A DNA stretch of 33,474 bases, from the NCBI GenBank assembly GCA_021814065.1, contig JAKAIZ010000008.1, forward strand, positions 1 to 33,474, given 5' to 3'. The translations under genes and the position numbers were made by a program. The notes under the pieces were generated by a model. That model had not been told where the DNA came from. It made no database searches and worked only from the letters and a program-made list of their open reading frames with translations. This document shows positions 3,586 to 32,744 of the stretch, in pieces (position 1 is the stretch's first letter; each line of letters starts with the position of its first letter). The DNA is from Nitrospirota bacterium (lineage in GTDB: Bacteria > Nitrospirota > Thermodesulfovibrionia > Thermodesulfovibrionales > UBA6898).

Positions 3586-4449
3586 TTACAGCGCTATAAC
3601 CCCGTATTTGATACTGCCCTTCAAACGTCCCATGCGATATCCGATTTGCCACGCAAAGTCAGCCACATCTCCCTTATTGCGGATACGGAAGAAATGTTTG
3701 GGGAGATAAAGCCACGACAATATGCCTGCGGTCAACGAGGCCTTGGGCATTCCCAAGGGTCGATACTTGCTGCAGATCTTAGCATTATATTCACCGCAGC
3801 CGCGGGCCTGTCTGAAAATTCCCCTGAGATCAGTCCTAAAGCGCACATGGATAACCGCATCGGGGACGAAATGCAGTGCAACCCCTTTTAACTGGATCCT
3901 CCAGCAATAATCGGTGTCCTGAAGCCTGATCATTGTTTCGTCAAACCCCCCTACTTCTTCGTGCAACCGGCGTTTGACACCTATCGTGCTCCCCCCGGCA
4001 TGAGGAAGATAGCGCGGATAGGTGTACTGCTGGATGCCGTCCGATTGAGGGTTTCTGTGAGTCTTTCTTACCCAGAGCGAATTGAGTTTTTCAATATCCA
4101 TACGGCAGGCAACGAATTCATGCTGTGACAGCGCCCTGCCCATGGCGGCCACCCACCCGGGAGCCACCTCATCGTCTGCATCGCAGAAGACAAGCGATTC
4201 GCCGCGTGCCGCCCTTGCGGCGGTATTCAGGGCAAATGACTTGCCGCGTCTCGCCGCTGCGTCCACGATACGGAGGTTCGGAAGACATTCCGAGTATTGT
4301 TTGACAATCCGAACTGTTTCATCGGTGCAGCCGTTGTCGGCCACAATGACCTCCCATGTCTCTCCCCACTGCTGCGCCGCGAGGGCTTCCAACTGCTCGG
4401 CAATGGTGTCCGCCACATTCAAGCAGGCTATTATCACGCTGAGCTTCAT
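3586..4449 (-). CDS. Glycosyltransferase family 2
   Basis: 'MKLSVIIACLNVADTIAEQLEALAAQQWGETWEVIVADNGCTDETVRIV', 'FCDADDEVAPGW', 'QDTDYCWRIQLKG'. ORF is open to 4488; start chosen at MKLSV. Confidence 0.9.
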   Translation of the reverse strand: MKLSVIIACLNVADTIAEQLEALAAQQWGETWEVIVADNGCTDETVRIVKQYSECLPNLRIVDAAARRGKSFALNTAARAARGESLVFCDADDEVAPGWVAAMGRALSQHEFVACRMDIEKLNSLWVRKTHRNPQSDGIQQYTYPRYLPHAGGSTIGVKRRLHEEVGGFDETMIRLQDTDYCWRIQLKGVALHFVPDAVIHVRFRTDLRGIFRQARGCGEYNAKICSKYRPLGMPKASLTAGILSWLYLPKHFFRIRNKGDVADFAWQIGYRMGRLKGSIKYGVIAL

Positions 4450-4463
4450 AGGGGCGCGGCAAC

Positions 4464-5708
4464 TCACTGTTTCAGCAGCAGGTGGCACAGGTCGATGTGC
4501 CTTTGCACCTGTAAATCCAGAGAGTATTCACCAATGGCGATCTCGCGACAGCGCCTGCCCATATCGAGGCAGAGCGATTCATCTTCGAGCAATTGAACGA
4601 TGAGATCGCTTAATTCTTCCGCATTCTCCGGTTCTGCCAGATAGCCCGTTATTCCCGGGCGAATGGCGTCGGGGACGCCACCAATCCTGAAAGATACTAT
4701 CGGCGTGCCGCAGGCCAAACTCTCAAGCACCGCGTATGGAAACACATCTGCGCGGGTGGGATGCACAAAGAGGTCGGCCGCAGAATAGTAGGTTGCTTTC
4801 AGGTAATCGCTCGCGACGTACCCTAGGTGAATGGTCCGGATATCCGGAGAATCGACCGTGACGTCACCTTTATGTCCTAGCAGAAGCATTACGATTTCGC
4901 CTTTTAAAGATGCGGGCAGCCGCCTGATTGCCGTCATCAGCAGATCTCCCCCTTTTAATCGGTTGGCCAGATTAGCCGCCAAAAACATTATCACTTTCTT
5001 GCCCTTCGGGATGCCGAGCGTCGCACGACACTTTTCAGTGTCCATAGGGCGATAGATTTCCGTGTCAACGCCATGGGGGATGTGATGGATCGGAAAGCGG
5101 TTGAGCATGCTCTGTTTGACCTGCTCCATCATCCAGGTGCTCGGGACGATAACCGTGAGGTGAGAGTGACTGTATGCCCAATCTTTGAGTTTCCATTCCA
5201 GATGCGTGTTATCTCGTCTGATGGGTGGATATAAGTCAGGGTGAGGACAGTTACCACAACCGATCTTCCACCGCCCGCATTCCAGGCTGTGGTAGCAGTG
5301 TCCGGTAAAGCTCCACATATCCTTAACAGGGAAAAGGGTGGGTCGCCCCTTCGTCAATAACGGATAGGCCAGAAAGGAACAAAAACCGTAGGAAGGTGCA
5401 TTGAGAATAAGGATGTCATTATCCAGCACAGCTTTATGTTTTGCAAGCCTGAAGGATGTTACGTCAAGAAGCCTGTTAAGTCCCACCCCTTCTGAAAACC
5501 GCTGAAGCATAAGGTCCATTCTTCTTTGTATCCTTGAGGGCTGTAATTGCTTTATGTCCGGAGATTCGATCTTCTTAATCACGCATAACACTCTTGCGTC
5601 TATCCCGACTTTCTTCATGCCGAAATGAAGGCGCTGTACTGCAATAGAACCGCCGTCCCCGGTGAGTTCTTCGCATGTCTGAAGGACTTTTATTCTCTTA
5701 CTGCTCAT
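4464..5708 (-). CDS. Glycosyltransferase family 4 (GT-B)
   Basis: 'GDGGSIAVQRLHFGMKKVGIDARVL', 'HIPHGVDTEIYRP', 'DLFVHPTRADVFPYAVLESLACGTPIVSFRIGGVPDAI'. Confidence 0.92.
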   Translation of the reverse strand: MSSKRIKVLQTCEELTGDGGSIAVQRLHFGMKKVGIDARVLCVIKKIESPDIKQLQPSRIQRRMDLMLQRFSEGVGLNRLLDVTSFRLAKHKAVLDNDILILNAPSYGFCSFLAYPLLTKGRPTLFPVKDMWSFTGHCYHSLECGRWKIGCGNCPHPDLYPPIRRDNTHLEWKLKDWAYSHSHLTVIVPSTWMMEQVKQSMLNRFPIHHIPHGVDTEIYRPMDTEKCRATLGIPKGKKVIMFLAANLANRLKGGDLLMTAIRRLPASLKGEIVMLLLGHKGDVTVDSPDIRTIHLGYVASDYLKATYYSAADLFVHPTRADVFPYAVLESLACGTPIVSFRIGGVPDAIRPGITGYLAEPENAEELSDLIVQLLEDESLCLDMGRRCREIAIGEYSLDLQVQRHIDLCHLLLKQ

Positions 5709-25138: not shown

Positions 25139-26311
25139 TCAGCCTACGAAAAATCTTCTTATGCACTCCACCACTAACGCGCTGTCTTCCTCTCTCTGCA
25201 GGGGTCCGATGGGGAGCGACAAGACCTCTTTCGCCGCCTTTTCCGAAATGCTCAGGTTACCGAATTGTTTCATCCTGCCTTCGAAGACCTTCATTTTATG
25301 CAATGGTGTCGGATAATAGACCATCGCCGAGACTCCCTGTTTTTTCAGGTATCCCTGAAGCGCATCTCTTTCCTTTGTGCGGACAGTATACTGATGAAAA
25401 ACATGCCGGGTGGGGGGAGCAGGCGACAAAAACGGATCGTCAGCAGCGACCGGGAGAATAAGACCGCTGATGTCTGAAAGCTTCTGCGTATAAAACGCGG
25501 CGATCTCCTGCCTTCGGGCATTGAATTCGTCAATATACCTGAACTTGGCAAGGAGAATTGCAGCCTGAAGCGTGTCCATCCTCCCGTTATACCCGACGTG
25601 ATCAACGTTATATTTGTCCCTGCCGCCGTGCTTGATCAACATGCGCACGAGTTCTGCGGTCTCGTTACTGTTGGTGGCAACCATTCCCGCATCACCAAAA
25701 CTGCCCAGATTTTTGGAAGGGAAAAAACTGAATGCTCCCGTGTTGCCGAGTGAGCCGAGTTTCCTGGCCTTCCATGTCGCGCCAAATGCCTGGGCCACGT
25801 CTTCCACAACAAATGCACCGTGTTCTTCTGCAATTCCTGTTACTTCATCCATATCGGCAGCCCGTCCATATAAGTGGACCGGAATAATTCCGGCCACCCG
25901 CCCCGACCCGTGAGGCGAATGCAGGTAGTCTCTGATCCTGTTCACGTCTATGTTGTACGTGACTGGGTCGATATCGACAAAGACAGGCGTCGCACCGGAT
26001 CTGATAATCGCATCACCGGTCGCCGTAAACGTAAATGGCGTGGTAATTATTTCATCATCCTTGTTGAAGTATTCCTCTCCCTTCAGCTGAATGGCATAGG
26101 CCCGCAGTGAAAGCACCAGCGCCTCTGTTCCCGACGATACTGCAATGCAGTCGCTGACGTTAAGGTACCCGGCAAGGGCTCCCTCAAATGCCGCGATCTC
26201 GGGCCCGAAGATCCATTTCTGATGACCGAGACATTTCTGCAGCGCGCCGTCTATATCCGGTTTCATATATTCATATTCCGCTTTTAAGTCGAGCATCGTG
26301 ATCTCTTTCAT
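25139..26311 (-). CDS. wbpE: DegT/DnrJ/EryC1/StrS aminotransferase (WbpE-like)
   Basis: 'MLDLKAEYEYMKPDIDGALQKCLGHQKWIFGPEIAAFE', 'VVEDVAQAFGATWKARKLGSLGNTGAFSFFPSKNLGSFGDAGMV'. Adjacent to the WbpB-WbpD fusion. Confidence 0.88.
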   Translation of the reverse strand: MKEITMLDLKAEYEYMKPDIDGALQKCLGHQKWIFGPEIAAFEGALAGYLNVSDCIAVSSGTEALVLSLRAYAIQLKGEEYFNKDDEIITTPFTFTATGDAIIRSGATPVFVDIDPVTYNIDVNRIRDYLHSPHGSGRVAGIIPVHLYGRAADMDEVTGIAEEHGAFVVEDVAQAFGATWKARKLGSLGNTGAFSFFPSKNLGSFGDAGMVATNSNETAELVRMLIKHGGRDKYNVDHVGYNGRMDTLQAAILLAKFRYIDEFNARRQEIAAFYTQKLSDISGLILPVAADDPFLSPAPPTRHVFHQYTVRTKERDALQGYLKKQGVSAMVYYPTPLHKMKVFEGRMKQFGNLSISEKAAKEVLSLPIGPLQREEDSALVVECIRRFFVG

Positions 26312-27966
26312 CAGACTTCTTCCTTCTTAGCTATGAGTGAATTGACGTCACCCATTTGATATTCATTGCCGCAGTAAGCGCAGACTGCGGAGTCATTCTG
26401 AAACCTCAGCGTCGTTCCACATCTGCACGCCCAGCCGATCCTCTTCGCGGGAACGCCTGCGACAACAGCGTAATCAGGGACATTCTGCTTGACGACGGCC
26501 CCCGCTCCCACAACGGCGTATCGCCCCACCGTTATGCCGCATACGATGGTAGCGTTTGCCCCTATTGTTGCACCCTTTCTTACAAGTGTGCTCCTGAACT
26601 CCTTCTTCCTTTCGATAAATGCCCTCGGATTATAAACATTCGTGAACACACAGGAAGGCCCGCAAAAAACTCCGTCTTCGAGGGTGACTCCCTTGTAGAC
26701 CGACACATTGTTTTGAATCTTGCAACCGTCTCCGACGGTGACGTCCGGACCGATTACAACATTCTGCCCGATGACACATTTTCTCCCCACTGCCGAACCC
26801 TTCAGAATATGGGAAAAATGCCAGACTTTTACGTCCTCGCCGATTGAGACGTCCTCGTCAACATGGGCGCTTTCATGGAGCACGGCAGAAGGCGATATGC
26901 GGGGACCGGGGTGTGCCGCTTCGGTGCCCGTAGATGTCGGGGCCGAAGGCCTCCTGCCGTTGCCGATAGCCTTATCCGCCTCTTCAAGGACCCTGAGGAC
27001 ACGTAATCCCTCTTCCCCGTTTGTCTTCGGTTCTTTCTTGGAGACTACACATTCTATGAAATGTTCAAGCTCCCGTCGCAGCGGCTCTCCGGCGCCGAAA
27101 GGGATGACCTGACATTCCGCCTTCATCGCAACGGGAACTTTTCCGTCCCTCCATTCGATCTTATGAGGATAAAGGAACAGTTTTTCCTTGCTCACATCGT
27201 CAAAGACGACCATCCCCTTTGAGCCCACCACTATCAGCTTTTGTTCCTTATAAGGGTGGAGCCAGCTTACAAAGATATGGCCCTTTACTCCGTTTCTGAA
27301 TTCGAGCGTCGTGAGGGTGGTATCGTAGACGGAGCTGTTCAGATAATCCCCGCCGAAGGCTGAAACCTTTACCGGTTCTTCCTCGAAGAGCATGAGCATG
27401 ACGGATATGTCGTGAGGGGCAAAGCTCCAGAGGATGTTTTCTTCGGTCCTGAGCTTCCCGATATTGAGGCGGTTGGAATAGATATACTGGATCTTCCCCA
27501 GTGCTCCCGACGATATGAGCTCTTTCAGCTTCAAGACTGCGGGATGATACTGCAGAATATGCCCGACCATCAGAATTCTCCCCTCACTTTTGGCCAGTGC
27601 GACAAGCTGCTCGCCTTCCCTGTAGGTCAGCGCGAGGGGTTTCTCGACAAAGACGTCTTTGCCTTCGAGCAGTGCCCGTTTTACCATTTCGTAATGAGTC
27701 ACTGCAGGAGTCGCTATCGCCACGGCCCTCACATCGGGAGCTTTCAGCATTTCCTCGAAGGACGTTGTGTAATTCAGCACAGGATAAGCGTCCGACCCGG
27801 TGCGCGCGGGAGAGGTCCCGCAAAGGGCCTGGGAGTTTTTCCGGTATTCGGAAACGACCTCAGGGCGGCTGTCGCAGGCCGTATGCAGCGCACCGATTTC
27901 CAGCAGGTTGCGAAAAAGATTTTTCCCCCAGAAACCAAGACCGGCAAGACCGACGAAAGTATTCAA
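26311..27966 (-). CDS. Fused Gfo/Idh/MocA oxidoreductase (WbpB-like) and left-handed beta-helix N-acetyltransferase (WbpD-like) with C-terminal zinc ribbon
   Basis: N-term 'FVGLAGLGFWGKNLFRNLLEIGALHTACD...FVEKPLALTYREGEQLVALA'. C-term hexapeptide repeats 'ISPSAVLHESAHVDEDVSIGEDVKVWHFSHILKGSAVGRKCVIGQNVVIGPDVTVG...VGAGAVVKQNVPDYAVVAGVPAKRIGW', then 'CRCGTTLRFQNDSAVCAYCG'. Confidence 0.93.
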   Translation of the reverse strand: MNTFVGLAGLGFWGKNLFRNLLEIGALHTACDSRPEVVSEYRKNSQALCGTSPARTGSDAYPVLNYTTSFEEMLKAPDVRAVAIATPAVTHYEMVKRALLEGKDVFVEKPLALTYREGEQLVALAKSEGRILMVGHILQYHPAVLKLKELISSGALGKIQYIYSNRLNIGKLRTEENILWSFAPHDISVMLMLFEEEPVKVSAFGGDYLNSSVYDTTLTTLEFRNGVKGHIFVSWLHPYKEQKLIVVGSKGMVVFDDVSKEKLFLYPHKIEWRDGKVPVAMKAECQVIPFGAGEPLRRELEHFIECVVSKKEPKTNGEEGLRVLRVLEEADKAIGNGRRPSAPTSTGTEAAHPGPRISPSAVLHESAHVDEDVSIGEDVKVWHFSHILKGSAVGRKCVIGQNVVIGPDVTVGDGCKIQNNVSVYKGVTLEDGVFCGPSCVFTNVYNPRAFIERKKEFRSTLVRKGATIGANATIVCGITVGRYAVVGAGAVVKQNVPDYAVVAGVPAKRIGWACRCGTTLRFQNDSAVCAYCGNEYQMGDVNSLIAKKEEV

Positions 27967-28045: not shown

Positions 28046-29308
28046 TCATAATTCGGACCATTTCCTCATGACCGCATTGCCTGCATCGCCCTCAAAAAAG
28101 GACTCCGCCGCTCTCTCTTTCATTCTTTTGGGGATAAGCAGGAGTAAACCCCTGATAAAAACGTCCAGCAGATGGAACAGATAGAACAGATAAACCTTTT
28201 TTGAGTCGCGGGAAAGGGAATACTTTTCTCTCAGATGCCCCCTCGACGGGAAAAAACTCTTAAAGGCAGTCATGACTTTGCCGCTGAAAGTTGTAGTACT
28301 TTTTAACATGCTCAGTACGTCAGGCTCCCGCATGAAAGAGGCCAGAAATCCTTGCAGGAGATTTGGGAAGAGGGCGCGACTGAAAAGATTCTTCACGAGT
28401 TCCCTGTCGGAATCCTTGTTCTTCATGATATTGTGTATCGGCAGAGGCATTTCCGTTCCGAGAAGGCCTCTGACGAGTTGTAATGTACAAAGCAGGTATC
28501 GCGCTATTTCGGGGTCGTCTGCAGTCGAGCCAATCCGTTCCCAGTCGATGTCATCCTGATAATAGCTCATGGTTTCATGAATATCACAAGCGTTCTTGAG
28601 CGCAAAAGAATTGAACTTGTGGTTAAAAGAAGCATGCAGGCAGAGATGCATCAGCAAATCCTCAGGCGACAGAAGCAAAACTGGAACGTCGGCAATTTTC
28701 GTCTGCTCAGCCCTTCCCCATAACTCGTCCATGTCCACTTTAAACGGACTATTCGGCGGGGTAATACTCCAGTGGATCTCGATCGGTGGAGCTCCCCTCT
28801 TCGTAAAAGGGACCAGATGATGTTGCGTCAAACATTGCTCTTCTATCCGCGCCCGGGATTCGGGTCCATACCCCATCTCCAGCAGTGCATCCTGGGCCCT
28901 TGGAAGGTCCTGTCTTCTGACAAGCAGGTCCATATCTCTCATCTGCCTTAGCGCGACGTCACCATATACCATTTCCGCCAGATGCAAACCCTTGAGGGCT
29001 ATAACTTCAATGCCCTGCCCCGTCAATACGTTGCAAACTTCTGAAAAATCGCTATAGAGACGCATATTTCTTGCTGCATTATAGAAATAAATTTCCTGTA
29101 ATCTCTGAATAAATGTGGGGGGGACATCGGCAATCCTATCGAATTTCTTCAGTCGATAATAAAGCAAGGGAGCAATATCGTGCCTAATCGCCAGTTGAAT
29201 GACATGATCCCAGTCGGACATGGAAATCCGGTGGAGTCTCGATTCAGTCCAGTCCGTCTTATTGCTAAGACAATAAAGCAACAGGCCAAAGCATCCCTTT
29301 GCATTCAT
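28046..29308 (-). CDS. Nucleotidyltransferase family protein (NTP_transf_5-like)
   Basis: 'IEVIALKGLHLAEMVYGDVALRQMRDMDLLVRRQDLPRAQDALLEMGY', 'IEIHWSITPPNSPFKVDMDELWGRA', 'LLSPEDLLMHLCLHASFNHKF'. ATG at 29308 has AAGGA upstream; the longer form uses a non-ATG start at 29341. Confidence 0.82.
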   Translation of the reverse strand: MNAKGCFGLLLYCLSNKTDWTESRLHRISMSDWDHVIQLAIRHDIAPLLYYRLKKFDRIADVPPTFIQRLQEIYFYNAARNMRLYSDFSEVCNVLTGQGIEVIALKGLHLAEMVYGDVALRQMRDMDLLVRRQDLPRAQDALLEMGYGPESRARIEEQCLTQHHLVPFTKRGAPPIEIHWSITPPNSPFKVDMDELWGRAEQTKIADVPVLLLSPEDLLMHLCLHASFNHKFNSFALKNACDIHETMSYYQDDIDWERIGSTADDPEIARYLLCTLQLVRGLLGTEMPLPIHNIMKNKDSDRELVKNLFSRALFPNLLQGFLASFMREPDVLSMLKSTTTFSGKVMTAFKSFFPSRGHLREKYSLSRDSKKVYLFYLFHLLDVFIRGLLLLIPKRMKERAAESFFEGDAGNAVMRKWSEL

Positions 29309-29331: not shown

Positions 29332-29550
29332 TCACCAGCACGACGGATTAAAGACCTTCTCTACGAAGGAATTACACCTGCCATCCGGATTTTTCTCTTC
29401 TCCGGTGCTTCCGCTGCTTCCATATTTCTCCGCCCACGCCTTGCGCGAGCTCATTTTGAAAGCTACAGCAAGGGGAAGTACGTATCCGGTCGTTCTGATG
29501 GTCTTTTTTAGAAACTCACGCCTTGACGTTTGTTTGCCTTCTTCAGACAT
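29332..29550 (-). CDS. 72-aa Tat-signal mini-protein with C-terminal Cys pair; candidate modified or exported peptide
   Basis: MSEEGKQTSRREFLKKTIRTTGYVLPLAVAFKMSSRKAWAEKYGSSGSTGEEKNPDGRCNSFVEKVFNPSCW. Tat motif SRREFLK, hydrophobic stretch, AWA|E cleavage-like site; GAGGTG RBS; fits exactly between flanking genes of the same operon. Confidence 0.72.
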   Translation of the reverse strand: MSEEGKQTSRREFLKKTIRTTGYVLPLAVAFKMSSRKAWAEKYGSSGSTGEEKNPDGRCNSFVEKVFNPSCW

Positions 29551-29566
29551 AGCGCACCTCGACTTT

Positions 29567-30487
29567 CTAATTTTGATATACTAATTCAGCCCCAGCACCA
29601 GCTCTCTGATCCCGGCAGAGTGCAAGCGGTGGCTGTTGCCTTATCAGCTGTGACATCGCAAGAGAAGCCTCATGCATGTCGCCGGTGTTGAACCTGAAAC
29701 AACGGCAATTCTTAACCAGCTGCAGCAAAGTTTCCAACCCCCGTTCTCCGTGGTCCAGAAGGTTAATTGTCTGTCCGATCAGCAGGGTCATCGCCTCGGT
29801 TTCTCCAACGGGAATAAGATCATTGCGGTTTCCGGACTTGTAACAAGGGAATACCAGCCAGGCGGGAACAGAGGAACGGGCGACCCACCCGTTTCGGATG
29901 AGCGCAGGGTCAAACCGCATCTTTCCACGACCTTCCATGCAGACCGCTTCATTCAATTTAACTGCAAGATCGGGGAACAAACCCAGTGCTCGGGAATCTA
30001 CATGGAAACTGCGAGGGAGCGGCACGGCCCTGTTCTCCCCCGGCTCAATGAGAATGACCTCATCGGAAAGGCACTTCCATCCCTGAAGCAGCATACCCAG
30101 GGCAAGAGAAGACTTCCCGGACCCGGAAGGACCGACAAGAAGAATGGCTTGCCCGTCAACGTCTACCCCTGATGCATGCAGTTGAATGAGATGCCTTGTG
30201 TTCTGAAGAATCCTCGCCATTATGGCCCATTCGAGGTTGTCCCATAATTGGACAGTGTCATCCGTTTCAAAGATGAGGGTGTCAGCTTCATATATCCGAT
30301 ATGCGCGAACGCCTCTGCCATGGTTCCAAAAGCACTGGACAGTCCACCCTGCTGAACATATTCCGGACTTCGCGGCCATGGCCGGATACAGGAGGCCAAG
30401 CCCTGATTTCAGCTCTTCACAGTCAGTCGCCAGAGAAAAGCGGAAATTGTGAATCTCGTATGATTGGCTGAACGTAGCCCTTTTCAT
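29567..30487 (-). CDS. HprK-related kinase (P-loop)
   Basis: 'HLIQLHASGVDVDGQAILLVGPSGSGKSSLALGMLLQGWKCLSDEVILI' resembles HPr kinase/phosphorylase with Walker A. Start MKRATF at 30487; the longer ORF extends to 30706 through the PqqD gene. Confidence 0.8.
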   Translation of the reverse strand: MKRATFSQSYEIHNFRFSLATDCEELKSGLGLLYPAMAAKSGICSAGWTVQCFWNHGRGVRAYRIYEADTLIFETDDTVQLWDNLEWAIMARILQNTRHLIQLHASGVDVDGQAILLVGPSGSGKSSLALGMLLQGWKCLSDEVILIEPGENRAVPLPRSFHVDSRALGLFPDLAVKLNEAVCMEGRGKMRFDPALIRNGWVARSSVPAWLVFPCYKSGNRNDLIPVGETEAMTLLIGQTINLLDHGERGLETLLQLVKNCRCFRFNTGDMHEASLAMSQLIRQQPPLALCRDQRAGAGAELVYQN

Positions 30488-30489
30488 GC

Positions 30490-30786
30490 TCAGCTCGGGT
30501 TTGGGGCCAACAGGTCGCACTCCTGAAAAAATGCAACGGCTCTGTAAAGATCTTTCATGACGGCGTCCTCGCTTGCCTTGCTGATCGAGGAAACTTCTGC
30601 TGCAATTTCTTCCAACGAGAGGTTCCCCTCCAAATACGACCAGAAAAGAGATGCAGTAATATTCAGCGTGTATGCCATCTCGCGCTTCCCGTCGTAAAGG
30701 ACGCAACCGTCATCCAGATCGCGCTGCCGGATATCCGGCCGTCTGGATAATCGTAATTGGGCCGACAACAAACCAGGGTCCCTCAA
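30490..30786 (-). CDS. PqqD-like peptide chaperone/RRE-type protein
   Basis: 98 aa. 'RPDIRQRDLDDGCVLYDGKREMAYTLNITASLFWSYLEGNLSLEEIAAEVSSISKASEDAVMKDLYRAVAFFQECDLL' follows the PqqD fold pattern. ATG overlaps the WbpA stop (coupled). Confidence 0.82.
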   Translation of the reverse strand: MRDPGLLSAQLRLSRRPDIRQRDLDDGCVLYDGKREMAYTLNITASLFWSYLEGNLSLEEIAAEVSSISKASEDAVMKDLYRAVAFFQECDLLAPNPS

Positions 30787-32246: not shown

Positions 32247-32744
32247 TCAGGCTTCCTCGAGGTCATCGGCATACATTTTCACGCCGATGCTCCTGCCCAG
32301 GAGCTCTATGTTCACCAGAAATGTGCATTGGTTCTCTTTTCTCTCCAGGATGCCTTCCGCCCCCTGGAGAGGGCCCCTTTTGACCCGTACCCTCGTCCCC
32401 TCCTTCAGATGGGGATAAATATCCAGGGGCTCCCCGCTCCCGACCAACAGCTTGAGGGAAACGATTTCTTCCGTCGCAACCGGCGTGGGGTAGCCCGGTT
32501 GGGCGGAGAGGAGGCTTATCGCTCCTCTTGTCTTGAGGACGTTCAGGAAATCTTCCGGAGACGGATGCACATGGATGAAGAGATAGCCCGGAAAAATCGG
32601 AAAATCCACCCACTTTCGTCTGTCCTTCCACTGTCTCATTTTTCTCGCAGTGGGGAGGAACGCCTCTATGCTCTTTTTTGACAACTCGTCATGGGCGACA
32701 AATTCATGATTTGATTTTACATATAGTGCATACCAGTTCATCAT
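32247..32744 (-). CDS. NusG-family transcription antiterminator (RfaH/UpxY/LoaP-like specialised paralog)
   Basis: 'NWYALYVKSNHEFVAHDELSKKSIEAFLPTARKMRQWKDRRKWVDFPIFPGYLFIHV' (NGN) and 'LKEGTRVRVKRGPLQGAEGILERK' (KOW). First gene after the regulatory region. Confidence 0.93.
   Translation of the reverse strand: MMNWYALYVKSNHEFVAHDELSKKSIEAFLPTARKMRQWKDRRKWVDFPIFPGYLFIHVHPSPEDFLNVLKTRGAISLLSAQPGYPTPVATEEIVSLKLLVGSGEPLDIYPHLKEGTRVRVKRGPLQGAEGILERKENQCTFLVNIELLGRSIGVKMYADDLEEA

Follow-up and report, generated by a model that had tools for sequence, protein, structure and literature searches.

The stretch of DNA analysed here (the window; 33,474 nucleotides) carries, on its reverse strand, a cassette of four genes. 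In order of transcription these encode a PqqD-like discrete RRE of 98 aa (30490..30786), an HprK-like kinase of 306 aa (29567..30487), a 72-aa peptide with a Tat signal (29332..29550) and an NTP_transf_5 nucleotidyltransferase of 420 aa (28046..29308; the start codon is uncertain and may lie at 29341). The peptide gene begins with ATG, preceded on the same strand by a Shine-Dalgarno-like GAGGTG (29555..29560) read directly from the sequence, and its product ends in CW. It lies in a tight operon, since the stop codon of the kinase gene is 16 bases upstream. None of the four encodes a dedicated peptidase for the leader, a cyclase or an exporter, nor a radical SAM protein or oxidase. The cassette is embedded in an exopolysaccharide operon, upstream of which lies a gene for an UpxY/RfaH-type antiterminator (32247-32744, reverse strand; UpxY model above cut-off). 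The same operon encodes a fusion protein with a Cys-rich C-terminus, which joins a Gfo/Idh-type dehydrogenase to a hexapeptide acyltransferase (26311-27966, reverse strand).

The 72-aa protein has no match in Pfam or PHROGs and only a weak partial match in NCBIfam, where no family covers it; an antisense ORF overlaps its frame. Homologs with 37–71% identity are nevertheless found in the same genus, family and order. The family comprises seven members from six genomes: the window, two further members of its genus (L003 in G223 and L221 in G434), two from its family (L007/L012 in G288 and L008/L013 in G186) and two in a single genome of its order (G227). None was found on the plasmids and IMG/VR contigs searched. 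Comparison with the 71%-identical homolog in the congener L003 gives dN = 0.17 and dS = 0.82 (dN/dS ~0.21), which indicates that the frame is under purifying selection. Besides M1, eleven residues are invariant in all seven members (R10, R11, F13, L14, T21, G22, Y23, P26, S35, A38 and W39), and the six full-length members also share C59, F67, C71 and W72 in a tail of the pattern C...[KR][IV]F..CW; in the seventh, an orphan copy, the tail has decayed. We conclude from this conservation that the ORF is a real, unannotated gene of a precursor-like family. Other candidate homologs were set aside: L004 is a 237-aa cell-wall-type protein whose likeness is confined to the N-terminus, L009/L014 match within a larger gene, and L002 is a 260-aa ferredoxin-type Tat protein.

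The N-terminal half of the peptide follows the Tat-substrate motif S/T-R-R-x-F-L-K. The twin-arginine segment SRREFLKK (residues 9-16; 29503..29526, reverse strand), with RR-x-F-L invariant in the family, is followed by a moderately hydrophobic region, TIRTTGYVLPLAVAF, and then by an AxA-type site, AWA (residues 38-40; 29431..29439, reverse strand). A38 and W39 are present in all seven members and A40 in six. The basic residues K33, R36 and K37 that follow the hydrophobic region are compatible with the Sec avoidance of Tat signals. Signal peptidase I is predicted to cut between AWA and E41, releasing a 32-aa core peptide (29335..29430, reverse strand) of sequence EKYGSSGSTGEEKNPDGRCNSFVEKVFNPSCW, which contains Cys59 (29374-29376), Cys71 (29338-29340) and Trp72 (29335-29337). 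A first-pass annotation of this DNA had proposed the motif, the length, the cleavage site, the two cysteines and the 32-aa product, and all of these agree with the ORF sequence. The refuting condition that it set, homologs lacking the RR motif and the cysteines, does not hold, with RR in 7/7 members and both Cys plus the terminal Trp in 6/7. In relatives the small Tat-signal precursor does lie beside HprK and PqqD genes, where the annotation had proposed to look for homologs.

This organisation suggests that the peptide is exported by the Tat pathway. The genome of the window, which is 94% complete, yields nine TAT-signal profile matches and a single sub-threshold match to TatC (20 bits), and TatC is present in all three cassette-bearing relatives tested (G223, G186 and G288). 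Within the core, no Ser or Thr is invariant among family members, which leaves phosphorylation without an evident fixed site. A disulfide between Cys59 and Cys71 is possible. Because the cassette contains no crosslinking enzyme, the two cysteines and terminal tryptophan suggest a disulfide loop rather than the crosslinking that had been considered in the first-pass annotation, for which we found no support. Nor did we find anything in favour of its other suggestion, export by piggy-backing on a partner.

The first-pass reading of the peptide is upheld in part, and the main feature, which it had missed, lies inside the Tat signal itself. The hydrophobic region contains GYVLPLA (YVLPLA, residues 23-28; 29467..29484, reverse strand), which matches the motif [Y/W]xxPx[L/V/I/F/A] by which the leader of LPP peptides binds its RRE; in that interaction an Asp holds the Tyr (Popov et al. 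2026, PMC13381572). All seven homologs retain Y23 and P26, and the residue two positions on is A, V or, in one, M; as they form one lineage, these are not seven independent trials. Among 57 other distinct Tat signals of the phylum, a sample biased by its selection with the TAT profile, none has [YW]xxPx[LVIFAM] within 28 residues after RR. In the four aligned RREs with YxxP-bearing partner peptides, an Asp aligns with the conserved Asp in the last helix of TfuB1. This position is a gap in the RRE of a diverged cassette, L067, whose Tat peptide lacks YxxP. The RRE may therefore bind the precursor through the YxxP motif, although to our knowledge binding to an extended YxxP strand that is also the hydrophobic region of a signal peptide has been demonstrated nowhere.

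The RRE scores above the Pfam PqqD cut-off, and its predicted structure (pLDDT 89.6) models as a lasso B1-type fold: TbiB1 and TfuB1, two lasso B1 proteins whose solved structures include bound leaders, rank ahead of PqqD as structural matches, and a profile search agrees (TfuB1, 2.5e-6). The kinase retains a GPSGSGKS-type P-loop, the preceding His104 and Asp142 of an LSDE motif in four aligned homologs. Its structural model is weak (pLDDT 60), and the matches of that model to HPr kinase and PEP carboxykinase are supporting only. The nucleotidyltransferase matches PF14907 with E = 4e-66, and its DxD motif is kept in six homologs. The order PqqD-type RRE, HprK-like kinase, Tat peptide and NTP_transf_5 recurs in five genomes (the window, L003, L221, L012 and L013). 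Close relatives of the kinase (E<1e-150) occur in 4 of 396 genomes of the phylum, and all four also carry the peptide.

Four known systems resemble this cassette most closely. LPP RiPPs are defined by a discrete RRE, an HprK-like kinase that polyphosphorylates a Ser, an NTP transferase, a SipW-like peptidase and an MsbA-like exporter, and their loci, like those of paeninodin, often lie within capsule loci (Popov et al. 2026, PMC13381572). The window shares the first three components, a YxxPx[hydrophobic] motif in the precursor and a variable core. It differs in that a SipW-like (SpI) peptidase, LppS, was not found among the cassette genes or inspected window ORFs, and that none of the five cassettes has an MsbA-like exporter, LppD; ABC-type matches in the Tat loci were considered for this role and fit nearby importers instead. 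Moreover, its leader is a Tat signal rather than YxxPxVLxHQxIxFETxxS, its core has the conserved two-Cys CW pattern, and LPP peptides are described as restricted to Bacillota. Lasso peptides of the paeninodin/pseudomycoidin type likewise combine a B1-type RRE, an HprK-like kinase and a nucleotidyltransferase. Beside the cassettes, however, there is no Asn-synthetase-like C protein (lasso cyclase), and the window peptide lacks a lasso-type core with a conserved Thr at -2 of the leader. An Asn-synthetase-like match in L053 is annotated as glutamine--fructose-6-phosphate transaminase and was rejected as a cyclase.

The third system, HPr-rel-A (TIGR04352, HprK-related kinase A; TIGR04353, PqqD_rel_X), shows the same succession of PqqD-like, HprK-like and NTP transferase genes. 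TIGR04352 is the best family for the window kinase, and two plasmid examples have an adjacent Tat protein. The kinases nevertheless fall below the TIGR04352 cut-off of 200 bits (window 118, L012 111, L013 122), and TIGR04353 (cut-off 35 bits) gives no match for the window protein and 24.8 and 22.7 bits for L012 and L013. The Tat protein of the window is also far smaller and lies between the kinase and NTP transferase genes instead of upstream. SynChlorMet (Scm) clusters share the pairing of HprK-like and PqqD-like proteins beside a small peptide, but the window cassette has no radical SAM protein and scores 27.6 of 125 bits for ScmC and 20.5 of 100 bits for ScmD. Since the defining features of LPP, lasso and HPr-rel-A systems were each tested and found incomplete, we do not file the cassette under any of them; most likely it works like an LPP cassette in which Tat replaces the exporter. 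A second, SynChlorMet-like cassette is present elsewhere in the window's genome (L145, G000:C107, 5419-7823) and in two others (L146 in G322 and L148 in G288). Its products are a radical SAM protein, an HprK-like kinase and a Cys-rich peptide of 56 aa in which WSKPECVKVKLVPEEA supplies a WxxP motif; its scores stay below the SynChlorMet cut-offs.

The other HprK loci of the phylum provide a second comparison. These 72 loci resemble clusters of the lasso/LPP type: at least 51 have a B2-type peptidase (Transglut_core3), at least 27 an ABC-type match and at least 29 an ordinary small YxxP precursor of the type MKKESYVQPALVKHELLRDIT, all lower bounds because most loci are cut ~4 kb from HprK. Peptidase and ABC assignments were made with Pfam and local profiles. 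In contrast, none of the seven Tat loci scanned has the B2 peptidase (0/7). Within this single phylum the same set of RRE, kinase and NTP transferase is thus accompanied either by a soluble YxxP leader and B2 or by a Tat signal without B2. In L059, L072, L074, L079, L080 and ~24 more loci, one to four small precursors with Y[VSA][QE]PxxxKHELLRD[IV]T lie beside PqqD, HprK and NTP_transf_5. Many of these loci include a B2 peptidase and an ABC exporter, L074 also has a RimK-type ATP-grasp protein, and no lasso cyclase was seen within ~4 kb.

Tat proteins also accompany more distant enzyme sets. In two diverged cassettes, L067 and L078, the gene between HprK and the NTP transferase encodes a different Tat peptide, of 68 and 115 aa respectively; a frameshifted, longer version of the L067 peptide was checked and is not supported. 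In L078, a 409-aa protein (4007-5236, reverse strand) joins a PqqD domain to an HprK-like kinase, and the adjoining 115-aa Tat peptide has two cysteines. The plasmid HPr-rel-A cassettes L053 (Sphingomonas) and L054 (Vibrio), two independent annotated examples through which alone other phyla were sampled, encode Tat-signal-like proteins (161 and 270 aa, respectively) immediately ahead of the PqqD-like gene. In a tree of HprK proteins with long branches, seven of the eight Tat-associated kinases group together with one Scm-type kinase. The L078 kinase falls elsewhere on a long branch, and monophyly of the Tat-associated kinases is not shown.

The sequences thus reveal the parts, their fixed order and a conserved precursor with RR, YxxP, AWA and a two-Cys CW core; from these we infer how the parts may work together. 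The 72-aa protein is probably the precursor of a modification cassette of the lasso/LPP lineage, with its Tat signal and RRE-binding leader merged. In the cytoplasm, the RRE would bind the YxxP motif of the Tat signal and present the core to the HprK-like kinase, which would phosphorylate a hydroxyl of the core one or more times. The NTP transferase would then add a nucleotidyl or sugar group, as in pseudomycoidin, where the nucleotidyltransferase PsmN puts a hexose on a phosphorylated Ser (PMC9266682). Release from the RRE would free the signal for the Tat translocon, so that modification would precede export, and cleavage by signal peptidase I after AWA would yield a 32-aa modified peptide, perhaps closed by a disulfide. 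In this way Tat and a housekeeping peptidase would do the work for which related pathways have an ABC exporter and a leader peptidase. The prior modification suggested in the first-pass annotation acquires a concrete footing in the neighbouring genes, whose RRE, kinase and NTP transferase are those of lasso/LPP peptide pathways, while modification and export themselves stay proposals. In favour of this scheme, the same enzyme set acts on YxxP peptides in LPP and paeninodin biosynthesis, the close HprK type is accompanied by the peptide in all four of its genomes, and both the diverged and the plasmid cassettes have adjacent Tat proteins. Against it stand the variable core hydroxyls, the sub-threshold kinase and TatC scores, and the genome G227, which holds two family members and no detected RRE or HprK. 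Of these two orphans (L011, 9836-10057; L015, 1474-1677), one has the CW tail and the other the leader only.

The G227 orphans also speak for a different reading, in which the peptide is an ordinary exported two-Cys product, such as an envelope factor or signal, that is not modified at all. The enzymes would then have another substrate, and demands of the Tat pathway or the membrane alone would preserve TGYxxP. A small exported peptide with two Cys requires no enzyme to form a disulfide, and the absence of an invariant acceptor hydroxyl fits such a product. This reading is unlikely, because the cassettes showed no second small ORF of precursor type with YxxP, the close kinase type and the peptide co-occur in 4/4 genomes, YxxP is missing from all 57 other Tat signals, and Tat proteins accompany the enzymes in four additional cassettes.

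Those four cassettes bear differently on a second alternative. The Tat proteins of L053, L054, L067 and L078 lack Y/WxxP and the arrangement is kept, as would be expected if the cassette modifies the peptide but the motif is coincidental, the RRE recognising another element and the Tat signal and leader being functionally separate. On account of those four proteins, the merged Tat/YxxP motif is shown for the window's family alone. We nevertheless consider this alternative improbable: Y23 and P26 are invariant, the RRE is lasso B1-like, and the Asp that aligns with the published Tyr-binding Asp occurs in all four aligned RREs whose partners have YxxP but is gapped in L067.

The genomic setting raises a third possibility, that the peptide and enzymes are accessory to exopolysaccharide; the modified peptide would, for example, be linked to the polymer of the surrounding operon or regulate it. 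In the window, L003 and L221 an UpxY/RfaH-type antiterminator does precede an exopolysaccharide operon that contains the cassette, and the capsule setting of LPP and paeninodin loci agrees with such a role. The cassettes of L012 and L013, however, are found among unrelated genes outside any polysaccharide locus, which indicates that the four genes are a unit of their own, and in L221 the neighbouring dehydrogenase gene is reduced to fragments and the cassette is intact; an accessory role is therefore very improbable. That the 72-aa ORF is spurious, as its short length, the antisense overlap and the lack of a family match might suggest, is hardly credible and already refuted by the conservation of seven members with their invariant residues and dN/dS ~0.21.

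If the merged-leader reading of the 72-aa precursor is correct, the four-gene set appears able to grab, chemically tag and export a 32-residue peptide by a stretch within the peptide's own Tat signal. The type of modification cassette is already known; what is new is the union of Tat signal and RRE leader. A literature search found no precedent for it and, on Tat-leader RiPPs and HPr-rel-A, returned the LPP paper only. The RRE-guided kinase pathways used for comparison rely on soluble leaders, dedicated peptidases and ABC exporters, whereas in the window's family RRE capture and Tat targeting would both fall to a single segment. Since the modifying enzymes need ATP or NTPs, they must act before export, and modification at that stage would explain the presence of a 32-residue peptide on a pathway for finished proteins. 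A broader class is conceivable, at somewhat short of even chances, in which Tat signals are RRE-recognised leaders and peptides and proteins bound for Tat export are phosphorylated, and nucleotidylated or glycosylated, by HPr-rel-A-like cassettes while still in the cytoplasm, RRE release being the check that passes only finished substrate to the Tat translocon. For the HprK-related kinase A cassettes, which were named by NCBI and for which our literature search found no published target, the present family suggests that the substrates are, as a class, Tat-exported proteins.
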